Shown in pieces: positions 417-8,819 of a stretch of DNA of 8,819 bases. Within the stretch, counting starts at the first letter, position 1; every line of letters begins with the position of its first letter. A model generated the notes under the pieces. The model saw only the letters and a program-made list of their open reading frames with translations. It was not told where the DNA came from and did not search any database. The stretch is taken from NCBI GenBank assembly GCA_014730295.1, contig WJIN01000166.1:1-8819 (forward strand), read 5' to 3'. The stretch comes from Promethearchaeota archaeon. GTDB lineage: Archaea; Asgardarchaeota; Lokiarchaeia; Sigynarchaeales; SOKP01. Made by a program: the position numbers and the translations under genes.

Positions 417-2687
417 ATGACTGAGATAATGGAAAAATATGAAGGCAAAAGCATACCTTCAGAAGAAAAGAAGATATTACAATCATCAAGACCAAGTTCA
501 CGATCTGAAGACTTCTATGAGCATATTTTTGACACTCTAGATTCCCTTAAGTTGGTTCCTTTCAATTTAGAATTATATAAGGATGAAGAATACCAGGAAA
601 AGGAAATATTACAGAGAAATCGGGGAATAATAGCTATGCTAAGGACGACCTTATTAAAAAGGATGGAATCTTCCCTAATATCATTTATGGAATCCATAGA
701 AACGCAAATTAAACTATGTGTTATATTTGAAAATCTTCTTGAAAAAAATTATGTTGCTACTTCACAATTTATTGATAAGCTTGAAGAATATATTGAAAAA
801 ATATCAGAAGAAGATGATGAAGTTGAGGTTGAGTTAGATTTATTATCCTTCGATAAATTAAAGCAATTTGCCGATAGGATAAAACCTGAGGAATTAGAAG
901 ATATGAGAAAAAAACAATTAACTCAAGAAGAGTTAGAAGAAAGAGATGAAAAGGATAAATATTTTAACTATTTAAAAAAAATTAATCCAGAAGAATTTAT
1001 TGAAGACTATCAAGAAAAGATGATTTCAGATGTCAAATATGACCAAGAAAAGTTTGAAGAGTTGTTGAATCAGACTAGGGACATTCTGGATGAGGGAGAT
1101 TTTAAATTAGAAGAGCTAAAATCAACTATAACTTCTCTTTTGGAAAATGCTCATGAAGAGAATGAAAGAAAAATCGTTATTTTTTCCTACTTTCGTACAA
1201 CCGCAGATTATATATTTGAAGAGTTAATAAATGATAATAGCTGGAATATGACAAATGATAATCCCGTAATCAAAAAAATTACTGGAGATACTCCTACCAC
1301 CAAAAGAATAGATTATGTGGAGAGATTTGCTCCAAATTCTTGTCTATTAGAATTAAAAGGGCCTACTAAAGTTAATAAAAAGAAAGAACTTGAAGATAAA
1401 GAGAAAATAAATATATTAGTCTCTACTGATGTTTTATCGGAAGGACAAAACCTTCAAGATGGTCGTTATGTAATCAATTATGACCTTCATTGGAACCCAG
1501 TACGAATGATACAAAGATCTGGAAGAATTGATCGTTTAGGAGCATTACATGATAAGGTAGGAATTTTTAATTTTTTCCCCCAAACAGGTCTGGAAAGGTT
1601 AATTCATTTGATAGAACGGTTACGACGTCGTTTGACTACCATTGATAATGCTTTAGGACTTGATGCGGATACTCTCGATGACGGAGATGCAAAAAAGAGA
1701 AGAAGAGTATTGGAGGAACGTAAAAAGAGAGAACAAGAGAAGCAAACTCGAGATGAAATTCAGAGAATAGAAGAAGAAGATGAAAATATTATCGAAGAAT
1801 TCGAAGAGAGGATGGAATTCGGAGGTACTGACTTAGCAAAGATAAAATTATTTAGTGAAATTAAAAGACAAGGTTATGAATATTATAGAAATGAAGTACC
1901 CTTGGGAATCCATTCTGGTCTTGTTGATGTAAGTTATTCTGGATATATCGTTGTAGTTTCAATAAAAAATCAAGATGTAGAACAATTGAAGTGGATGTTT
2001 TGGTCAGAGGATGAAAAATTTCGGAAAAATTTAGAACATAATTATGGTTTATTGATAGATAAACCCAAAGTAGAGCGGATGCTGGATAACGTAGTCTCTG
2101 AATGGGAAGAAATTAAAAAGGCGCGTTATGAACAACAACCGAGAATTATAAAAGAAGAGCCCCAAGAACTCTTTAGAAAAGTTATCCATATTATTAGACG
2201 TTTTAAAAAAGCTCAAAAGAAAGATGATAAACTCGCAAATTTAAAAAATAAAAAGCCGATAAAAGGAAATGGAATTTATCATCGCTTTTTGAATAAAGCA
2301 ATTCAAAAGGGATTAATTAAAAAGAAATTTGCTAGTAAATTCCAGCAACTTCTATTACAAAAAAGTATTAAGGTTTTGGCAAAAGAAGAAGACGTTGCGG
2401 ACATTATTGATGAATTTAATAAAACGAGAGACAAGATAGAAAAAGTAAGAAATGATCCGAAGATTGATGAATTAGAGAAAGAAGAAATTATAAATGGATT
2501 ATATAGAAAGGGCGCGATTGAGCTTCTCGAGAGATTTTATAAATATATGGAAAAAACAGGTCTAAAAGTCAGAGAAATCAAAAAATCAAAAATTGAGAAT
2601 GAGAATCTAAAACTGGTTGGATTCATAAGACTTTATAAAATAGATAATGAGATGGAAACAGATTATATCCAAGATAGTTTACGATAA
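417..2687 (+). CDS. SNF2-family helicase, second lobe plus charged C-terminal region
   Basis: The protein carries the second RecA-like lobe (HELICc) of a superfamily 2, SNF2-type DNA translocase. KIVIFSYFRTTADYI starts at about residue 252. Motif V is STDVLSEGQNLQDG (D338), followed by the NYDLHWNPVRMIQRSGRIDRLG stretch holding motif VI (Q366, R370, R373). Residues 1-235 are the helical region between lobes, with the LLKRMESS segment typical of this group at about 80-87. After the lobe comes a very charged, probably coiled-coil segment (about 425-475), a VPLGIHSG element (494-501) and a lysine-rich helical tail. Walker A and the DEAH box are absent; they belong to the lost or upstream part, so this piece alone should not hydrolyse ATP. 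The ATG at 417 has no ribosome site and follows a TAG in the same frame, so it may not be a real start. Such helicases often sit with nucleases or methylases in defence islands, but none is visible here. The 756 codons after the TAG are intact, implying a recent lesion or a sequence error. Confidence 0.8.
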   Translation: MTEIMEKYEGKSIPSEEKKILQSSRPSSRSEDFYEHIFDTLDSLKLVPFNLELYKDEEYQEKEILQRNRGIIAMLRTTLLKRMESSLISFMESIETQIKLCVIFENLLEKNYVATSQFIDKLEEYIEKISEEDDEVEVELDLLSFDKLKQFADRIKPEELEDMRKKQLTQEELEERDEKDKYFNYLKKINPEEFIEDYQEKMISDVKYDQEKFEELLNQTRDILDEGDFKLEELKSTITSLLENAHEENERKIVIFSYFRTTADYIFEELINDNSWNMTNDNPVIKKITGDTPTTKRIDYVERFAPNSCLLELKGPTKVNKKKELEDKEKINILVSTDVLSEGQNLQDGRYVINYDLHWNPVRMIQRSGRIDRLGALHDKVGIFNFFPQTGLERLIHLIERLRRRLTTIDNALGLDADTLDDGDAKKRRRVLEERKKREQEKQTRDEIQRIEEEDENIIEEFEERMEFGGTDLAKIKLFSEIKRQGYEYYRNEVPLGIHSGLVDVSYSGYIVVVSIKNQDVEQLKWMFWSEDEKFRKNLEHNYGLLIDKPKVERMLDNVVSEWEEIKKARYEQQPRIIKEEPQELFRKVIHIIRRFKKAQKKDDKLANLKNKKPIKGNGIYHRFLNKAIQKGLIKKKFASKFQQLLLQKSIKVLAKEEDVADIIDEFNKTRDKIEKVRNDPKIDELEKEEIINGLYRKGAIELLERFYKYMEKTGLKVREIKKSKIENENLKLVGFIRLYKIDNEMETDYIQDSLR

Positions 2688-2814: not shown

Positions 2815-2835
2815 CTTAAATTGATATGTAAAAAA

Positions 2836-3156
2836 ATGACTAAAAAACAAGAAAATGCTCTTTTTAGTATTATTAAGGAGGGATATACATATGAACTACA
2901 TTGTAATAAAAAGAACATTATTATTGGTAAAGAAGAATGTGAAGTTAAGTGTGAGAGCGAAAAAAAAAAATGTATGATATGGGAAAAAGGAACAGAATTT
3001 GACCAATATTATTATAATAACGATATTTGTCCTTATTGTATAATGAATTCAAGATCGAGGGGTTTAATGTATATTAACTTTAAACTTATGGAAATGGATT
3101 TAGTCAAGCGTAAAATTCCTTGTTGTGAATGCTATTTTGAAAATCCTGATCTCTAA
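2836..3156 (+). CDS. Small cysteine-rich protein, probably metal-binding, function unknown
   Basis: I do not recognise the family. The protein has 106 residues from the ATG at 2836, or 111 from an in-frame TTG at 2821. I prefer the ATG because a TATA-like element lies about 26 bases upstream and neither start has a Shine-Dalgarno site. In the 111-residue numbering, cysteines are at 3, 28, 40, 44, 51, 70, 73, 101, 102 and 104. They include a CPYC pair (70-73) and a terminal CCEC cluster (101-104). Two separated CxxC-like pairs are a typical layout for one zinc site, with C40/C44/C51 as possible extra ligands; this is inference. There is no signal peptide or membrane segment, so it is probably cytosolic. 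It lies between the broken helicase and the GTPase gene and appears to be transcribed on its own. It ends with TAA. Confidence 0.7.
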   Translation: MTKKQENALFSIIKEGYTYELHCNKKNIIIGKEECEVKCESEKKKCMIWEKGTEFDQYYYNNDICPYCIMNSRSRGLMYINFKLMEMDLVKRKIPCCECYFENPDL

Positions 3157-3430: not shown

Positions 3431-6307
3431 ATGGAAGAAAATGAAGTTTTTACTTGTTGCTTACTTTTAAAAAATAACTCGATAATGTTAGGTTCCTCCT
3501 ATGGAAATATATACATAGGTCAATTGAGAACGCCTTCAGAAGTTAATAATTTAGAATTTAATAATAATGATAATATTGAAGTTATTACAAAGATATCAGA
3601 AAAAATTCTATCCTTTCAAGGTTCAATCCGAACAATCGAAAATCTTAATGAAAATAATATTTTAATTCTTAGTAGTTATGGCGATATTATATGCTATTCA
3701 ATTAAAAATAGATCACATACTGAAATACAAAAAGGAAAATCATCAAAGTTTAGTAAAACTTGGAGGTTACTTGTAATTGATGAGGATCGATTTATAACTA
3801 TTGGAAATTACAAGAAATTAATGTATTGGTATCGATCGGGTGATAATTTCGAATCAAATACACAACCTGAATTTCAAGAATTTAATGAGAAACATGCTTA
3901 TTTCTGCTTAAATTGGTTTGAAGGGAAAAATATTTTTCTGATAAATAATTTTAAAGGACATACCGAACTTTGGGAAGTTAACGCATCTGGAATCTCTAGA
4001 ATTGCTAGAGATACTCTTGAAGGAAATTTGCAAGACTTTCTTACTATAAATAATGATTATTTAATTACCGTTGATTATTTTGGATATATTTATGTGTTTA
4101 GAATAGAAGATCATACATTTAAAAAAGTATTTGAGTTTAAGATCTCATCTAATCAGGGAAATATAGTTTATTATTCACCTGAAAATGAATTAATATTAAT
4201 CGGGACTAATAATGAATTAATTTTTCTTGAAAATGATTTTCAAAAAGTCTATAAAAAGGATGTGCCGGTTAAGCAAATATTTAGATATGGGAATATCGAT
4301 TTAATTTTGTCTAGCAAAGGAATTATTCGACTCAATTTTGATAAAAAGGAAGTTCCAGAATCCATTATAAATTATAGATATAAAAAAATTGGATTAATAG
4401 GGGATCATGATGTGGGAAAAACGACTTTTTGTAGGTATTTGAAAAAAGGGTCATTAAGTGATGAAGATTTAACTTCTGAGGAATCTTCACTAGGGAGACA
4501 TGTATGGACCATTAGTGTTGAAGATAGCAATGAACAAGACAATAAAATTTTATCTTTTTTAGATGACGATATTAGTAAAAAAATCTTATATTTTGATATT
4601 GCAGGTCAGAAATCTGAACATTTCACCTATTTTCCAATCTTATATGATTCAGATATTATCTTATTATTTTATCAAGGAACATCTAGAGAGACTTTTGACC
4701 AAGTATTAAAATATTATTTAGAACTGAAGAATAGATGCTCAAAAGCAAATTTTTTTATTATACAAACTCATTCTGAACAACACCAAAGAATCACAGATAG
4801 ATATCTTAAGAGAGAACTTATTAGAATTGGTTTGGATGATACAATCTTAATAAAGATAGATTCAAAAACAGGAAAGGGATATAATGACTTTAAAGAGATT
4901 GTTCTTGAGAATATAGATTGGAATTCTGCTCCGACCGTAATTGAAATGCCAATTTTTAATAATCTAATGGAATTTTTTGATCAGCTATATATGAGTGGTA
5001 AATCCTCTTCAATATCATTAGAAGATCTTCCGAGTATGATACTTAATTTAGATGAACAAAGATTAGAAAACATAATTTTATCTTTATATAAAAAAGGTAT
5101 AATTCAGTATTTGGAAGAAGATAAGAGAATTTTAATAAATAATGAAGAATATGAAACAATGCATTCTGAAATCACAAATTTAATAGATGAAGAATATGGT
5201 TATATTAAAACAAAATTAATATATAAAGAATTAGGAAATAATCTACAGAAAAAAAAATTTATAAAAAATATACTGAAATATTTTAAGGATAATGAAATTG
5301 GAATTATCTTCAAGGAAAATAGTAAGAAAAAAGAAACACATATATTTCCTCGTAAGCTTAGAAGTGATCTTTATTATCCAAATCAATATGAAGATCTTAT
5401 TCCTAAAAATCTTACTAAGTTTAAATTTAGTGATAATTTGTTGCAATTAGAATCTTTTATAGCTTTTTTGGATATATATCCTTTAGATTTGATTAGTATT
5501 TCGAAATCAGAAATCCTATTTAAGATCGATCATGAACCAGATAATGCTCTTCTTTATTTAAATATTTCCAGAAAAGAATCATTTAAAGTTTGCTCTATTG
5601 GAATAAATAAAATAGAAAATGTAGATTATCAGATTGAAAAAGAAATACTCTCTTTTATATTAGAAAATATTGGTAATTATTTAAACGATGTTTCATTTAA
5701 ATCTAATCAACCATCACTTCAAGGACTAGATATTGAGGAACAAGTTAAAATATTATTAAAAACTACTTATGAACGCCCCTTTCTAGATTTTAAAACAGAA
5801 TATAATTTAAATACCAAAGCAGAAAAGGCAGAATTTCTCAAAGATACAATTGCTTTAACAAATTCTGCTGTATTTAATGAAAATATGGGATTTTTAATTA
5901 TTGGAATCGAAGAGAAAGATGGCCAAATTTTAAACATTTTTGATATAAGTAATAGTAGTCTGTTAGAAGAAAAATCTGCGGTTATTTTAAATGATTATCT
6001 CAATAATTTCCCTTTATTAGACTTTTATGAAATTAAGATTCATGATCTTTATGAATGGCAAGAAAATGAAGAAATTTCAAATCAGATTCCTTTTACAGAA
6101 AATCAAAAAGATCCATCAAACGAAGATAAACTCCTTGTAATAAGAATTAATAGATTAAAAGAAACCGTGTGTGATATTAAGAAAAAAATTCATTTTGAAA
6201 AAAAAGGCAAACAAAAATTATATGATAGAGGGTGGTCCTGGTGGAGAATTAATTCTTATACTTTTCCAATATCAGAAATAGAAAAGCAGATTTTAAGGAA
6301 TAAATAG
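3431..6307 (+). CDS. Roco-like protein: beta-propeller, Roc GTPase, COR-like region, AlbA_2 (Schlafen-type) domain
   Basis: Residues 1-312 form about seven degenerate WD40-like repeats (for example SSYGDIICYSI, FGYIYVFRI, SKGIIRLNF), consistent with a beta-propeller binding a partner or ligand. Residues 318-490 are a Ras-superfamily GTPase: P-loop GDHDVGKT (324-331), switch II DIAGQ (389-393), a G4 site THSE (446-449) in place of NKxD, and G5 SKTGKG (478-483). The TH..-type G4 is Roc-like. Residues of about 500-760 resemble COR: a winged-helix part (LPSMILNLDEQ, then IIQYLEED..ILINN), an 'IFPRKL' segment near 637, and a beta-rich second half. Residues of about 780-955 match AlbA_2, the Schlafen-type nucleic-acid-binding fold: ERPFLDFKTE (781-790), ALTNSAVF, MGFLIIGIEE (819-828), then a terminal LYDRGWSWWRI. 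No membrane segment is seen, so it is probably cytosolic. It likely acts as a GTP-controlled switch coupling the propeller to nucleic acid; that role is inference. It ends with TAG. The GTPase and AlbA_2 calls are firm, COR less so. Confidence 0.9.
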   Translation: MEENEVFTCCLLLKNNSIMLGSSYGNIYIGQLRTPSEVNNLEFNNNDNIEVITKISEKILSFQGSIRTIENLNENNILILSSYGDIICYSIKNRSHTEIQKGKSSKFSKTWRLLVIDEDRFITIGNYKKLMYWYRSGDNFESNTQPEFQEFNEKHAYFCLNWFEGKNIFLINNFKGHTELWEVNASGISRIARDTLEGNLQDFLTINNDYLITVDYFGYIYVFRIEDHTFKKVFEFKISSNQGNIVYYSPENELILIGTNNELIFLENDFQKVYKKDVPVKQIFRYGNIDLILSSKGIIRLNFDKKEVPESIINYRYKKIGLIGDHDVGKTTFCRYLKKGSLSDEDLTSEESSLGRHVWTISVEDSNEQDNKILSFLDDDISKKILYFDIAGQKSEHFTYFPILYDSDIILLFYQGTSRETFDQVLKYYLELKNRCSKANFFIIQTHSEQHQRITDRYLKRELIRIGLDDTILIKIDSKTGKGYNDFKEIVLENIDWNSAPTVIEMPIFNNLMEFFDQLYMSGKSSSISLEDLPSMILNLDEQRLENIILSLYKKGIIQYLEEDKRILINNEEYETMHSEITNLIDEEYGYIKTKLIYKELGNNLQKKKFIKNILKYFKDNEIGIIFKENSKKKETHIFPRKLRSDLYYPNQYEDLIPKNLTKFKFSDNLLQLESFIAFLDIYPLDLISISKSEILFKIDHEPDNALLYLNISRKESFKVCSIGINKIENVDYQIEKEILSFILENIGNYLNDVSFKSNQPSLQGLDIEEQVKILLKTTYERPFLDFKTEYNLNTKAEKAEFLKDTIALTNSAVFNENMGFLIIGIEEKDGQILNIFDISNSSLLEEKSAVILNDYLNNFPLLDFYEIKIHDLYEWQENEEISNQIPFTENQKDPSNEDKLLVIRINRLKETVCDIKKKIHFEKKGKQKLYDRGWSWWRINSYTFPISEIEKQILRNK

Positions 6308-6645
6308 AAAACCTTAATCAGAAGGAAATGTATACTGCCGAAAAGAAATAACATTCTGGAGATGATCAATATCTAAATTTTTATCTTAGTTAAATTTGAT
6401 TTTTGTAATCATAGTCCATAATTTATAATTAAATTTAAAAATTTTGAAATAAACAAATGTATAGGAAAAAATACTAAAAATATCCTTAAAACAACTAATT
6501 TCGTATTTTTTTTCATTTTATGAGAAACAAAGGCCACTAATTTTAAAAAATTTTAATACAATTATTGCAATAAATAGAGGAGTAACAATATAAAATTCAA
6601 AATTTAGTTTTCCAAATAAGCAAAACCGTTAAAAAAGTAAAGGTC
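6308..6645. other. Gene-free AT-rich spacer
   Basis: I see no convincing gene on either strand. The stretch is dominated by A and T runs. It contains a T8 tract at 6506-6513, about 200 bases after the GTPase gene stop and only weakly suggestive of termination. A GAGGAG sequence at 6576-6582 looks like a ribosome site, but no ATG, GTG or TTG follows at a usable distance. A TATA-like AATATAAAAT (6587-6596) could serve the small genes to the right. Confidence 0.5.
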
Positions 6646-6732
6646 ATGTGCGGTTGGTGCGATTACTCGTATATAGTCTATAATATCCCCGAAACCGACC
6701 TCGAAGAGATTACAACCAAAACCATTTACTAA
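6646..6732 (+). CDS. Possible 28-residue CxxC peptide, function unknown
   Basis: The ATG at 6646 opens a 28-codon frame starting MCGWCDYSYIVY and ending at TAA. The frame is open further left to 6586, and the residues just before the ATG read KTVKKVKV, so the true start could be a non-ATG codon upstream. A basic strand followed by CxxC resembles the first half of a small zinc ribbon, though a second cysteine pair is absent. The codons prefer C in the third position (TGC, TAC, ATC, CCC, ACC, GAC, CTC), as in the 73-residue gene 65 bases downstream and unlike the rest of the window. That shared bias is the main reason to think it is real. There is no ribosome site at a proper distance; AAAGGT ends one base before the ATG. 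It may be a tiny gene or the tail of a broken one. Confidence 0.35.
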   Translation: MCGWCDYSYIVYNIPETDLEEITTKTIY

Positions 6733-6796
6733 CTTAAAAACAAATCACATCAACCTATAATAAATTAAAATACACCAATAAGGTGAATAAAAAAAT
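6733..6796 (+). promoter_or_regulatory. G-depleted leader with Shine-Dalgarno site AAGGTGA
   Basis: The leader between the 28-residue frame and the ATG at 6797 has only three G bases, all inside the ribosome-binding sequence AAGGTGA (6780-6786). That sequence lies 10 bases before the start codon and complements the archaeal 16S rRNA tail. It is the clearest ribosome site in the window. A leader without G should stay unfolded and leave the site open. Confidence 0.65.
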
Positions 6797-7018
6797 ATGA
6801 CCGAATCCAAAACAAACCATACCATCCAAGACCAACAGCAAGAACGCCCCCGAAATAGAATTATGGAAGAGTTAGCGGAGATCCAAGAAGAGTGCGACGG
6901 AAAGCGATTAGTCTATATTACCGGCTCCCACGATCCCTACGAACACGCCCTCGAAACCTTAGATACGTTTTTCGCAGAATATTGCTATAAGGTCAAGATC
7001 CTCTTCCATTCTAACTAA
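6797..7018 (+). CDS. Small 73-residue acidic protein, function unknown
   Basis: I do not recognise the family. Residues 1-20 are polar and glutamine-rich, probably disordered. Residues 22-35 form a likely acidic helix (IMEELAEIQEECDG). Residues 36-73 could form a small alpha/beta unit: strand KRLVYITG, then a helix containing HALETLDTFFAEY, then strand KVKILFHS. There is no signal peptide or membrane segment. The start is well supported by AAGGTGA 10 bases upstream, and a T8 tract lies just after the TAA stop. Codons are C-rich in the third position (ACC, ATC, GAC, TAC, CTC, TTC), unlike the A/T-ending codons of the flanking genes. This points either to selection for strong expression or to an origin outside this genome. 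The possible 28-residue CxxC frame upstream has the same bias and may be its partner. Confidence 0.75.
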   Translation: MTESKTNHTIQDQQQERPRNRIMEELAEIQEECDGKRLVYITGSHDPYEHALETLDTFFAEYCYKVKILFHSN

Positions 7019-7024
7019 TAACTA

Positions 7025-7032
7025 TTTTTTTT
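7025..7032 (+). terminator. T8 tract, probable archaeal terminator of the 73-residue gene
   Basis: A run of eight T bases begins seven bases after the TAA stop. Archaeal RNA polymerase typically stops at such tracts without needing a hairpin, so this probably ends the small-gene transcript. Confidence 0.5.
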
Positions 7033-7127
7033 CGATATCATCAACAAATACTTCCTCGACAAAAATTACTGTTCGCTAAGATCCTATATCTGCAATTTCA
7101 CATGCATATCATAATTTTCTAAACATT

Positions 7128-7173
7128 AACCTTTTATCTTTTGTTTTATTAAGGTGTAGATGTAGATAAGGTT
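7128..7173. repeat. Imperfect inverted repeat upstream of the membrane hydrolase gene
   Basis: AACCTTTTATCT (7128-7139) pairs with AGATAAGGTT (7164-7173), giving ten base pairs with a two-T bulge and a loop of 24 bases. The loop contains GTAGAT twice in tandem (7156-7161 and 7162-7167, the second copy entering the right arm). It lies in the gap after the T8 tract and about 70 bases before the next start. It may be a binding site or a chance fold. Confidence 0.3.
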
Positions 7174-7214
7174 TATTCCTAAGAGTTTACAAATTTTGAA
7201 ATAGTTAAATAAAT

Positions 7215-7242
7215 CTTTAAATTCTTTTCTGGTTAATTAACC
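7215..7242 (+). promoter_or_regulatory. TATA element and perfect 12-base palindrome at the hydrolase gene start
   Basis: CTTTAAATT (7215-7223) is centred 26 bases before the ATG at 7245, the spacing of a TATA box for a leaderless transcript. Between it and the ATG lies the perfect palindrome GGTTAATTAACC (7231-7242), ending two bases before the start codon. A protein bound there would cover the transcription start, so it is a candidate operator. No regulator gene is visible nearby. Confidence 0.45.
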
Positions 7243-7244
7243 TT

Positions 7245-8819
7245 ATGAAAGATATTTTGCAAACTATTTTATCAGTATTCAAGATTAAATATTTGAGCTA
7301 CATTGTATTTTTGCTAAATCTTACAAATATGATTATGGGACTTTTCTATATTATCTTTCAAAGTTCAATTATTATATGGAATGTATATGGTATCTTAATT
7401 CTAGTAAACCTTATTCTCAATTTTATACTTATATTTGTAACTAAGAAAAACATAGAGAAGGCGACCAAATTATGTGGAAGAATAAATTTTCTTTGTTATT
7501 TCTATTTAATCATTACAGCAATCTCACCATTGTTAATTTTATTAGGAAATTTTCTAATCTCTGTTTCGTATTCAAATAGCACTATATTAAATATTGTTTT
7601 TTATCTTATGGTTTATTCTGGGTTTTTTGGCATATTAACCCTTGGAACTATAATTTCTTATATTGATATAAAGAACCTTAATAACAGGGAATATTGGAAG
7701 AATAATGAAGTAAAGAAGCTAAAAAATCTCCCATCTCTAAAAAGAAGGCTTTTAAAAACTGGTTTTGGTATTTTTGGATTATTTAGCTTAATTTTAGGCT
7801 CATATATCGCATATAATCTAGTTTTCGTTCCTTATAGTGATTATACCGGATGGTGGATAGGGATTATTTTCTATCAATTTTCACTTTCATTATTCGTTAT
7901 TCTGCTTTCAAGTACTTTTATATTTTTGTTATTGATTAATCGAAAGAAATATCCCTATTATTTTTACAGTTTTGGTATTTTTGGATTAATACTTTCAAGT
8001 ATTTTTCTACTTCCATTGATTTCTATACCTTATATTTCATTCCAAGCGAATCAAGAATTTACTCAAGCATTTGGAGTTGATTGGGAATCTAAAATTGATC
8101 CTTCTATGGAAAGATTTTTTCAAGTTAATCCATATTCTATCACAGAATATTTTTTAGGAAATCATCCAAAAGAATGCAATATTGATATAAATATTCCTTT
8201 TTACTCCAACAAAAGTGAAGGTATTACTTTACATTATGATGCTTATTATCCTAAAACCTCGGGAAGCTTACTTCCAGGAAATAATTCTGTAATTATCAAT
8301 ATTCATGGAGGCGCATGGACAATTGGAGATAAAGGCCCATCTAATATGCTTCAAGTTAATAAATACTTTGCAGCGCAAGGATATGTTGTTTTTGATATTC
8401 AGTATGGACTAAAAGAAGGAGAATTTCTCATAATTCCTACACCAGACCAAGTCGGTGGTAATTTTACAATTAATGATCAGCTAAGACATATAGGAAATTT
8501 CACCAAATATCTTAACACCTCTTTCTTTAAAAATCGTTATAATTTAAATTTAAATTCTGTATTTATTACAGGGAACTCTGCAGGGGGTCATCTCTCCTTG
8601 GCAAGCGCTTTACTAATAGATAATGGTACCTATACAGATATCTTCAATTCAGCTCTAAATATTAAAGGAATAATTCCTGTTTATCCTGCTGATCCTCCTG
8701 AAAGTATTATAAGTGGTTCAGAAAAATTTAGAAATCCAGAAAATTACTTTATCACCTCTAATAGTCCTCCTTGTTTGATGTTTCAAGGAACTAAAGATTT
8801 TACCCTCATTGAATCTAAA
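7245..8819 (+). CDS. Membrane-anchored alpha/beta hydrolase (esterase-like), 3' end outside the window
   Basis: The frame is open for 525 codons to the window edge. Residues 1-266 hold about seven hydrophobic helices (near 16-39, 41-65, 81-105, 113-140, 173-195, 203-231 and 241-266). Positive loops follow helices 2, 4 and 6 (TKKNIEKATK, KKLKNLPSLKRRLLK, NRKK), which places the N-terminus inside and the following domain outside the cell. Residues of about 310 onward are an alpha/beta hydrolase of the carboxylesterase/BD-FAE type: oxyanion-hole motif HGGAW (354-358), nucleophile elbow GNSAGGH with S445, and the probable acid D518 in QGTKDFT. The catalytic histidine should lie just beyond the window. 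It would cleave ester-type bonds at the cell surface; the substrate cannot be told. Six N-x-S/T sequons lie in the outer domain, fitting archaeal surface glycosylation. The ATG fits a TATA element 26 bases upstream and has no ribosome site. Confidence 0.88.
   Translation, partial: MKDILQTILSVFKIKYLSYIVFLLNLTNMIMGLFYIIFQSSIIIWNVYGILILVNLILNFILIFVTKKNIEKATKLCGRINFLCYFYLIITAISPLLILLGNFLISVSYSNSTILNIVFYLMVYSGFFGILTLGTIISYIDIKNLNNREYWKNNEVKKLKNLPSLKRRLLKTGFGIFGLFSLILGSYIAYNLVFVPYSDYTGWWIGIIFYQFSLSLFVILLSSTFIFLLLINRKKYPYYFYSFGIFGLILSSIFLLPLISIPYISFQANQEFTQAFGVDWESKIDPSMERFFQVNPYSITEYFLGNHPKECNIDINIPFYSNKSEGITLHYDAYYPKTSGSLLPGNNSVIINIHGGAWTIGDKGPSNMLQVNKYFAAQGYVVFDIQYGLKEGEFLIIPTPDQVGGNFTINDQLRHIGNFTKYLNTSFFKNRYNLNLNSVFITGNSAGGHLSLASALLIDNGTYTDIFNSALNIKGIIPVYPADPPESIISGSEKFRNPENYFITSNSPPCLMFQGTKDFTLIESK
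7762..7988 (+). repeat. 20-base direct repeat inside the hydrolase membrane region
   Basis: The same 20 bases occur at 7762-7781 and 7969-7988. Both are in the same frame and encode FGIFGL at the start of helices 5 and 7. Nearby, CTTTCAAGTA also occurs twice, at about 7905 and 7992. This could be a trace of internal helix duplication or low-complexity convergence. Confidence 0.4.

Follow-up and report, generated by a model that had tools for sequence, protein, structure and literature searches.

The window analysed here is the entire contig WJIN01000166.1 (8,819 nucleotides) from a Promethearchaeota archaeon (assembly GCA_014730295.1), and our subject is a gene on its forward strand, an uninterrupted ATG to TAG frame at 3431..6307 that encodes a protein of 958 amino acids. 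The protein begins with a WD40-type beta-propeller (residues 1-305; 3431..4345), recognised by its predicted fold and presumed to be a sensor or scaffold, and continues on the same strand with a Roc/Ras-type GTPase domain (residues 312-495; 4364..4915), a COR-like region made of two winged-helix-like units and then an alpha/beta unit (residues 505-757; 4943..5701) and an AlbA_2 domain of the Schlafen/SAMD9 type (residues 768-958; 5732..6304), the presumed effector. The Pfam Roc family matched residues 319-448 with 33.7 bits (cut-off 27) and SLFN_AlbA_2 (PF04326) matched residues 781-928 with 36.5 bits (cut-off 25.3), and the GTPase domain also had a fold match to KRAS. Pfam propeller families gave matches inside residues 117-266, all under their cut-offs, as was the NCBIfam small_GTP match (28.9 bits versus 42.5). 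The Pfam scan contained no leucine-rich repeat (LRR) family, the WD40-type propeller being found instead, and no NB-ARC, NACHT or STAND module was among the seven Pfam families listed, the P-loop domain being of the Roc/Ras type. No PADLOC profile matched the protein at E <= 0.1. The original prediction, made from the sequence alone, had quoted the motifs GDHDVGKT, DIAGQ, SKTGKG, ERPFLDFKTE and MGFLIIGIEE and had put the four parts in this order. All five motifs were found in the frame 3431-6307, and the Pfam matches, the predicted folds and relatives with the same order agree with the four-part architecture, of which we are highly confident.

Apart from the window protein, protein searches found 15 relatives, of which 14 are full-length (939-956 amino acids) and one has 538 amino acids; as each search was confined to scoring about 8,000 candidates, members may be missed. 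A further protein search added no members to these 16. Three relatives carry source names, which read 'Candidatus Helarchaeota archaeon' in one case and 'Promethearchaeota archaeon' in two. The archaeal phylum Promethearchaeota corresponds to the Asgard group. The 15 full-length members (939-958 amino acids) all align from end to end, with pairwise identities of 0.32-0.82 and a median of 0.40. Because the 14 full-length relatives keep the same domain order, a join of two genes by an assembly error, which the original prediction had named as one finding that would overturn it, is ruled out. At E <= 0.1 the Roc and Ras families were each matched by 16/16 members and the AlbA_2 family by 6/16; one fragmentary member lacks the latter region. 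No member turned up in 84,980 species genomes or in viral contigs when these were scanned with short conserved patterns only.

The G1 and G3 motifs of the GTPase domain are well kept in this family. Both the G1 P-loop GDHDVGKT (residues 324-331; 4400..4423) and the G3 motif DIAGQ (residues 389-393; 4595..4609) are conserved across the full-length members, with G324, G329, K330 and T331 in the former and D389, A391, G392 and Q393 in the latter invariant (15/15). The usual form of G4 is [NT]KxD. In the alignment of the 15 full-length members the unusual G4, THSE in the window protein (residues 446-449; 4766..4777), takes the form T-[HFY]-[ST]-[EDN], with T in 14/15 (Ala in one), H, F or Y at position 447, S in 13/15 and E, D or N at position 449. 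Variation of G4-G5 among Roco proteins has been remarked upon in a review (PMC6337361). Between G1 and G3, residues 349-379 (4475-4567) hold inserts of low predicted confidence that are longest in the members P0001-P0003 and partly present in P0006, P0007, P0011 and P0013; in the predicted model residues 365-379 have a pLDDT below 50.

The identity of the region following the GTPase was approached through structure. A predicted model of residues 495-958 had a pLDDT of 90, and in a Foldseek search the COR structure of the Chlorobium Roco protein (3dpt) ranked first of 1212 matches (E 3.7e-6), while LRRK2 came sixth and LRRK1 seventh. Among 350,542 PDB chains, six matched this model at E <= 0.001, namely the 3dpt COR, four chains of the SAMD9 tRNase structure 9o0d and LRRK2 (6vno). 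The predicted structure contains both the COR-like and the AlbA_2 folds that had been expected, the COR of the Chlorobium Roco protein coming first and the SAMD9 tRNase next. The COR-like identity is a matter of predicted fold and not of sequence recognition.

The AlbA_2 domain contains a putative catalytic motif, E781-x4-D786-x-K788 (5771..5794), picked out by its conservation and by its spacing. E781 and K788 are present in 15/15 full-length members, and position 786 is acidic in 15/15 (Asp in 14, Glu in one). A candidate third acidic residue, E828 (5912..5914), is also kept in 15/15. Within the 193 alignment columns of residues 766-958, 19 are invariant and five are acidic throughout, three of these five being 781, 786 and 828. 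The spacing E-x4-[D/E]-x-K, found in 15/15, is that of E209, E214 and K216 of SLFN11, which are required for tRNA cleavage by an enzyme whose active form is a dimer (PMC9482658). The same work found D252 of SLFN11 dispensable; E828 is a candidate counterpart of D252 by our own placement. In SAMD9L, virus restriction and translation arrest depended on two of the three corresponding acids, which had been mutated jointly (PMC11221667), and the tRNase residues of SAMD9 are listed in PMC12331169. With moderate confidence, the conserved residues suggest that the AlbA_2 domain is a nuclease and not merely a binding domain. An alternative, which we regard as unlikely, is a GTP-regulated nucleic-acid-binding regulator, in which no nuclease would be involved: the AlbA_2 domain and the winged helices would bind RNA or DNA, with transcription or translation of target genes under the control of the GTPase. 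The retention of E781, acidic 786, K788 and E828 in every full-length member, with the first three spaced as in Schlafens that cleave, speaks against such a regulator.

Proteins of comparable layout were found on cyanobacterial plasmids. Searches with tblastn of the relatives P0004 and P0012 against 72,556 plasmid records returned the same two records, from Nostoc sp. C057 and Calothrix NIES-4101 (E 2e-5 to 4e-6 and 3e-8 to 3e-5), while the window protein returned only the Nostoc record (E 7e-3). The Nostoc protein (WP_256874761; locus L001) and the Calothrix protein (BAZ36750; locus L002) resemble the archaeal family in having WD40 repeats, a Roc domain, a region of similar length after it that matches no Pfam family, and an effector at the end; they differ in the effector itself, which is Metallophos plus CHAT in the former and TIR in the latter, and in a propeller and middle region without sequence match to the family. 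The family Roc profile gave these two proteins 51.2 and 38.6 bits respectively, the best scores outside the family among the proteins compared. Five bona fide COR proteins scored lower (35.8 bits for a Nostoc SAV_2336-RocCOR protein and 25.5 to 13.1 bits for four LRR-Roc-COR proteins), and the best of 350 shuffled controls reached 5.2 bits.

Some further features of these bacterial proteins and loci were observed. By reading, both propeller-Roc proteins have a stretch with Cys pairs before the effector, and on the Calothrix plasmid (L002, 6594-11950) the propeller-Roc-TIR gene is followed by two genes whose products look like double TIR-type proteins. A brxC gene and a DUF1788 gene are near one of the five COR proteins, type I restriction-type genes are beside another and a MoxR ATPase gene beside a third; the remaining two had no such neighbour in the stretch examined. 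The first of these is the Haliscomenobacter LRR-Roc-COR-EAD11 protein (L006, 2687-8588), with brxC belonging to BREX. The third lies on a Nostoc plasmid (L003, 1278-5809), where the MoxR ATPase gene is directly 5' of the gene for the SAV_2336-Roc-COR protein, an arrangement that recalls the ternary conflict systems of PMC7159879.

The closest described class is that of the prokaryotic Roco or AP-GTPase (Roc)-COR conflict proteins, described as counter-invader systems in which leucine-rich repeats stand at the N-terminus and at least 24 different domains can be exchanged at the C-terminus (PMC8195603). They share with the present family an N-terminal repeat sensor, a Roc-type GTPase, a COR-like unit and a C-terminal effector, whereas the family has a WD40-type propeller in place of their LRR, a COR recognised by fold only and named members that are Asgard archaea. 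All prokaryotic Roco proteins identified by 2019 had the LRR-RocCOR layout according to the review PMC6337361. AP-GTPase-COR proteins have also been placed in vWA-MoxR conflict systems, in which propellers are fused to the vWA component (PMC7159879). The words 'Schlafen' and 'AlbA' appear neither in PMC7159879 nor in the running text of PMC8195603, figure and source data aside. GTPase, Schlafen, WD40 and AlbA are likewise not mentioned in the main text of two articles about defence in archaea (PMC11291487, PMC12988326). In the literature searched, a collection of 5.39 million papers outside which most subscription papers lie, 'Asgard archaea' and 'Schlafen' did not occur together, the only match to 'Asgard', 'Roc domain' and 'GTPase' concerns giant viruses, and the combination of propeller, Roc, COR and AlbA_2 was not found. 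Among the matches listed for WD40 together with Roco, AP-GTPase or the COR domain, which include PMC10907252 and were mostly judged by title and start of abstract, none describes the architecture.

Three groups of eukaryotic proteins share parts of this arrangement. SAMD9 and SAMD9L, which are antiviral proteins of animals, likewise unite an AlbA_2 tRNase with repeats and a P-loop NTPase within a single polypeptide and include the fold match 9o0d (PMC5445408, PMC12331169, PMC11221667), but their AlbA_2 domain is near the N-terminus, their NTPase is STAND-like and is accompanied by Sir2-like, TPR and OB domains, and their described architecture has no Roc, COR or propeller. The Schlafen nucleases SLFN11, SLFN12, SLFN13 and SLFN14 belong to the same AlbA_2 Pfam family and have the pattern E-x4-E-x-K (E-x4-D-x-K here); unlike these enzymes, which have a core of N- and C-lobes and in SLFN11 a helicase domain (PMC9482658), the window protein has one AlbA_2 unit only, in the Pfam stretch as in the model, preceded by the COR-like region and behind the GTPase, and it lacks the two-lobed Schlafen core. 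LRRK2 and other eukaryotic Roco kinases have the Roc-COR tandem (fold matches 6vno and 8txz) but a kinase as output. LRRK2 has LRRs, and its WD40 propeller is C-terminal. We regard the window protein as a divergent Roco-type switch of Asgard archaea that carries a propeller at its N-terminal end and a presumed AlbA_2 effector at its C-terminal end, a combination that appears new although each part is known.

The gene stands apart from its neighbours: the previous frame of at least 60 amino acids lies 274 bases upstream, and on the other side a 73-aa frame follows after 489 bases and the next long one after 937. Upstream, 417..2687 (+) encodes the C-terminal part of a DrmD-like SNF2-type helicase (NF038317, 90 bits versus a cut-off of 610, profile positions 418-699 of 1021). 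Its apparent continuation, by reading, runs over different frames (1-131, then 132-407, with an in-frame TAG at 405-407) to the start of the contig; the pieces may represent a decayed gene or sequence errors at the contig end. Of a DISARM set, only this interrupted fragment was seen before the contig ends. The original prediction had cited the helicase alongside when suggesting a defence or stress-response effector, but an interrupted fragment at a contig edge gives no support for a partnership. A 111-aa frame with a TTG start (2821-3156) has several Cys pairs with a zinc-binding look and had no match in Pfam (E <= 1), NCBIfam or PADLOC (0.1) or PHROGs (0.01). Downstream, 6501-7250 is an island of higher G+C (0.33-0.35 versus 0.24-0.25 in the flanks) with negative GC skew that contains the 73-aa frame (6797-7018) and is possibly inserted DNA. 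The frame at 7245-8819, truncated by the contig end, has an N-terminal half that by reading is hydrophobic and looks membrane-spanning, and after it a BD-FAE-type alpha/beta hydrolase.

Considering the four parts together, we propose that the protein is a one-gene sensor, switch and effector in which the GTP cycle gates an AlbA_2 nuclease. Its role would probably be to arrest growth as a defence against viruses or stress; SAMD9/9L act in this way, and the same has been proposed for bacterial Roco/AP-GTPase conflict proteins that carry other effectors. For this proposal as a whole we see close to an even chance. The gating of the AlbA_2 output by GTP is, taken separately, moderately probable, and a role in defence has slightly less than even prospects. 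From its position the propeller would bind a trigger or partner, and this binding would change the nucleotide state of the Roc GTPase. By homology to Roco proteins, the COR-like region might relay the change by moving two subunits, or by pairing or unpairing them. CtRoco is a dimer when nucleotide-free and a monomer with GTP (PMC11052575); if such behaviour applies, the GTP cycle would set the pairing of two AlbA_2 units. The AlbA_2 domain, once released or brought into a working arrangement, would cut RNA, most likely tRNA by analogy with its AlbA_2 relatives, and translation in the affected cell would be shut down. Bacterial Schlafens reportedly act in phage defence, according to a preprint cited in a survey of BREX systems. 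That 2026 survey itself describes Schlafen RNases as widespread backup effectors (PMC12839542). The earlier suggestion of a GTP switch with a nucleic-acid output in place of a kinase remains the best reading, given the E-x4-[DE]-x-K motif and the bacterial propeller-Roc proteins with other effectors, with the activity itself being inferred. An undescribed defence effector, as had also been suggested, is plausible for this particular combination, but the wider class of Roc-COR proteins with variable C-terminal effectors had already been described (PMC8195603).

Several observations weigh against this proposal. The window protein had no match to Pfam COR, COR was not in the best 25 of 29 families matched by the 16 members, and hhalign of the COR-like region to true COR gave E 0.35, whereas five bona fide COR proteins do match COR families. 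None of the seven bacterial proteins (two propeller-Roc and five COR) scored above shuffles with the family propeller and COR profiles, and hhalign of the post-Roc middles of the family and of the cyanobacterial proteins gave E 0.04. Common descent with the cyanobacterial proteins is therefore shown for the GTPase only, and the layout they have in common may be partly convergent. The non-canonical G4 means that specificity for GTP is not assured, and the Asp in place of the second catalytic Glu in 14/15 members could alter or abolish cleavage. The 15 full-length members are kin to one another, so the conservation counts are not independent. Finally, Pfam, NCBIfam and PADLOC profiles recognised no defence gene in the contig except the broken helicase. 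This last result is consistent with a housekeeping or stress-response ribonuclease switch that plays no part in antiviral defence, for example one that halts growth under starvation, as are the isolation of the gene and the near-constant length and end-to-end alignment of the members. We consider such a switch fairly improbable, since the small number of members (16 proteins and none in the pattern-based genome scans, although members can be missed) better fits an accessory gene, and relatives of the same layout are on plasmids, one with a TIR effector. A degenerate protein with an inactive GTPase or effector, retained as a binding platform, would fit the non-canonical G4 and the poorly predicted insert at residues 365-379 but is very improbable given that members with identities as low as 32% keep the P-loop, DxAGQ and AlbA_2 motif residues with little or no variation.

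A more specific version of the defence proposal, which we put forward tentatively and consider rather doubtful, is that Asgard archaea possess an immune receptor encoded by a single gene, in which a Roco switch driven by GTP, and not a STAND module driven by ATP, turns on a Schlafen/SAMD9-type tRNase. The propeller would read the threat and pairing or unpairing through the COR-like region would arrange two AlbA_2 domains, making the protein a counterpart of SAMD9 built on an LRRK2-type switch. For LRRK2 there is still debate on how the GTPase cycle is linked to the output (PMC6337361, PMC11052575). Because sensor, switch and output are contained in one chain of fewer than 1,000 residues, the family would be a simple system for testing how an output domain responds to a Roc-COR cycle. 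If the proposal is true, the Roc-COR switch known from LRRK2 and the AlbA_2 tRNase known from Schlafen and SAMD9 proteins, two lines that both matter for eukaryotic immunity and disease, would be united in one protein, and this in the archaea that are regarded as nearest to eukaryotes.
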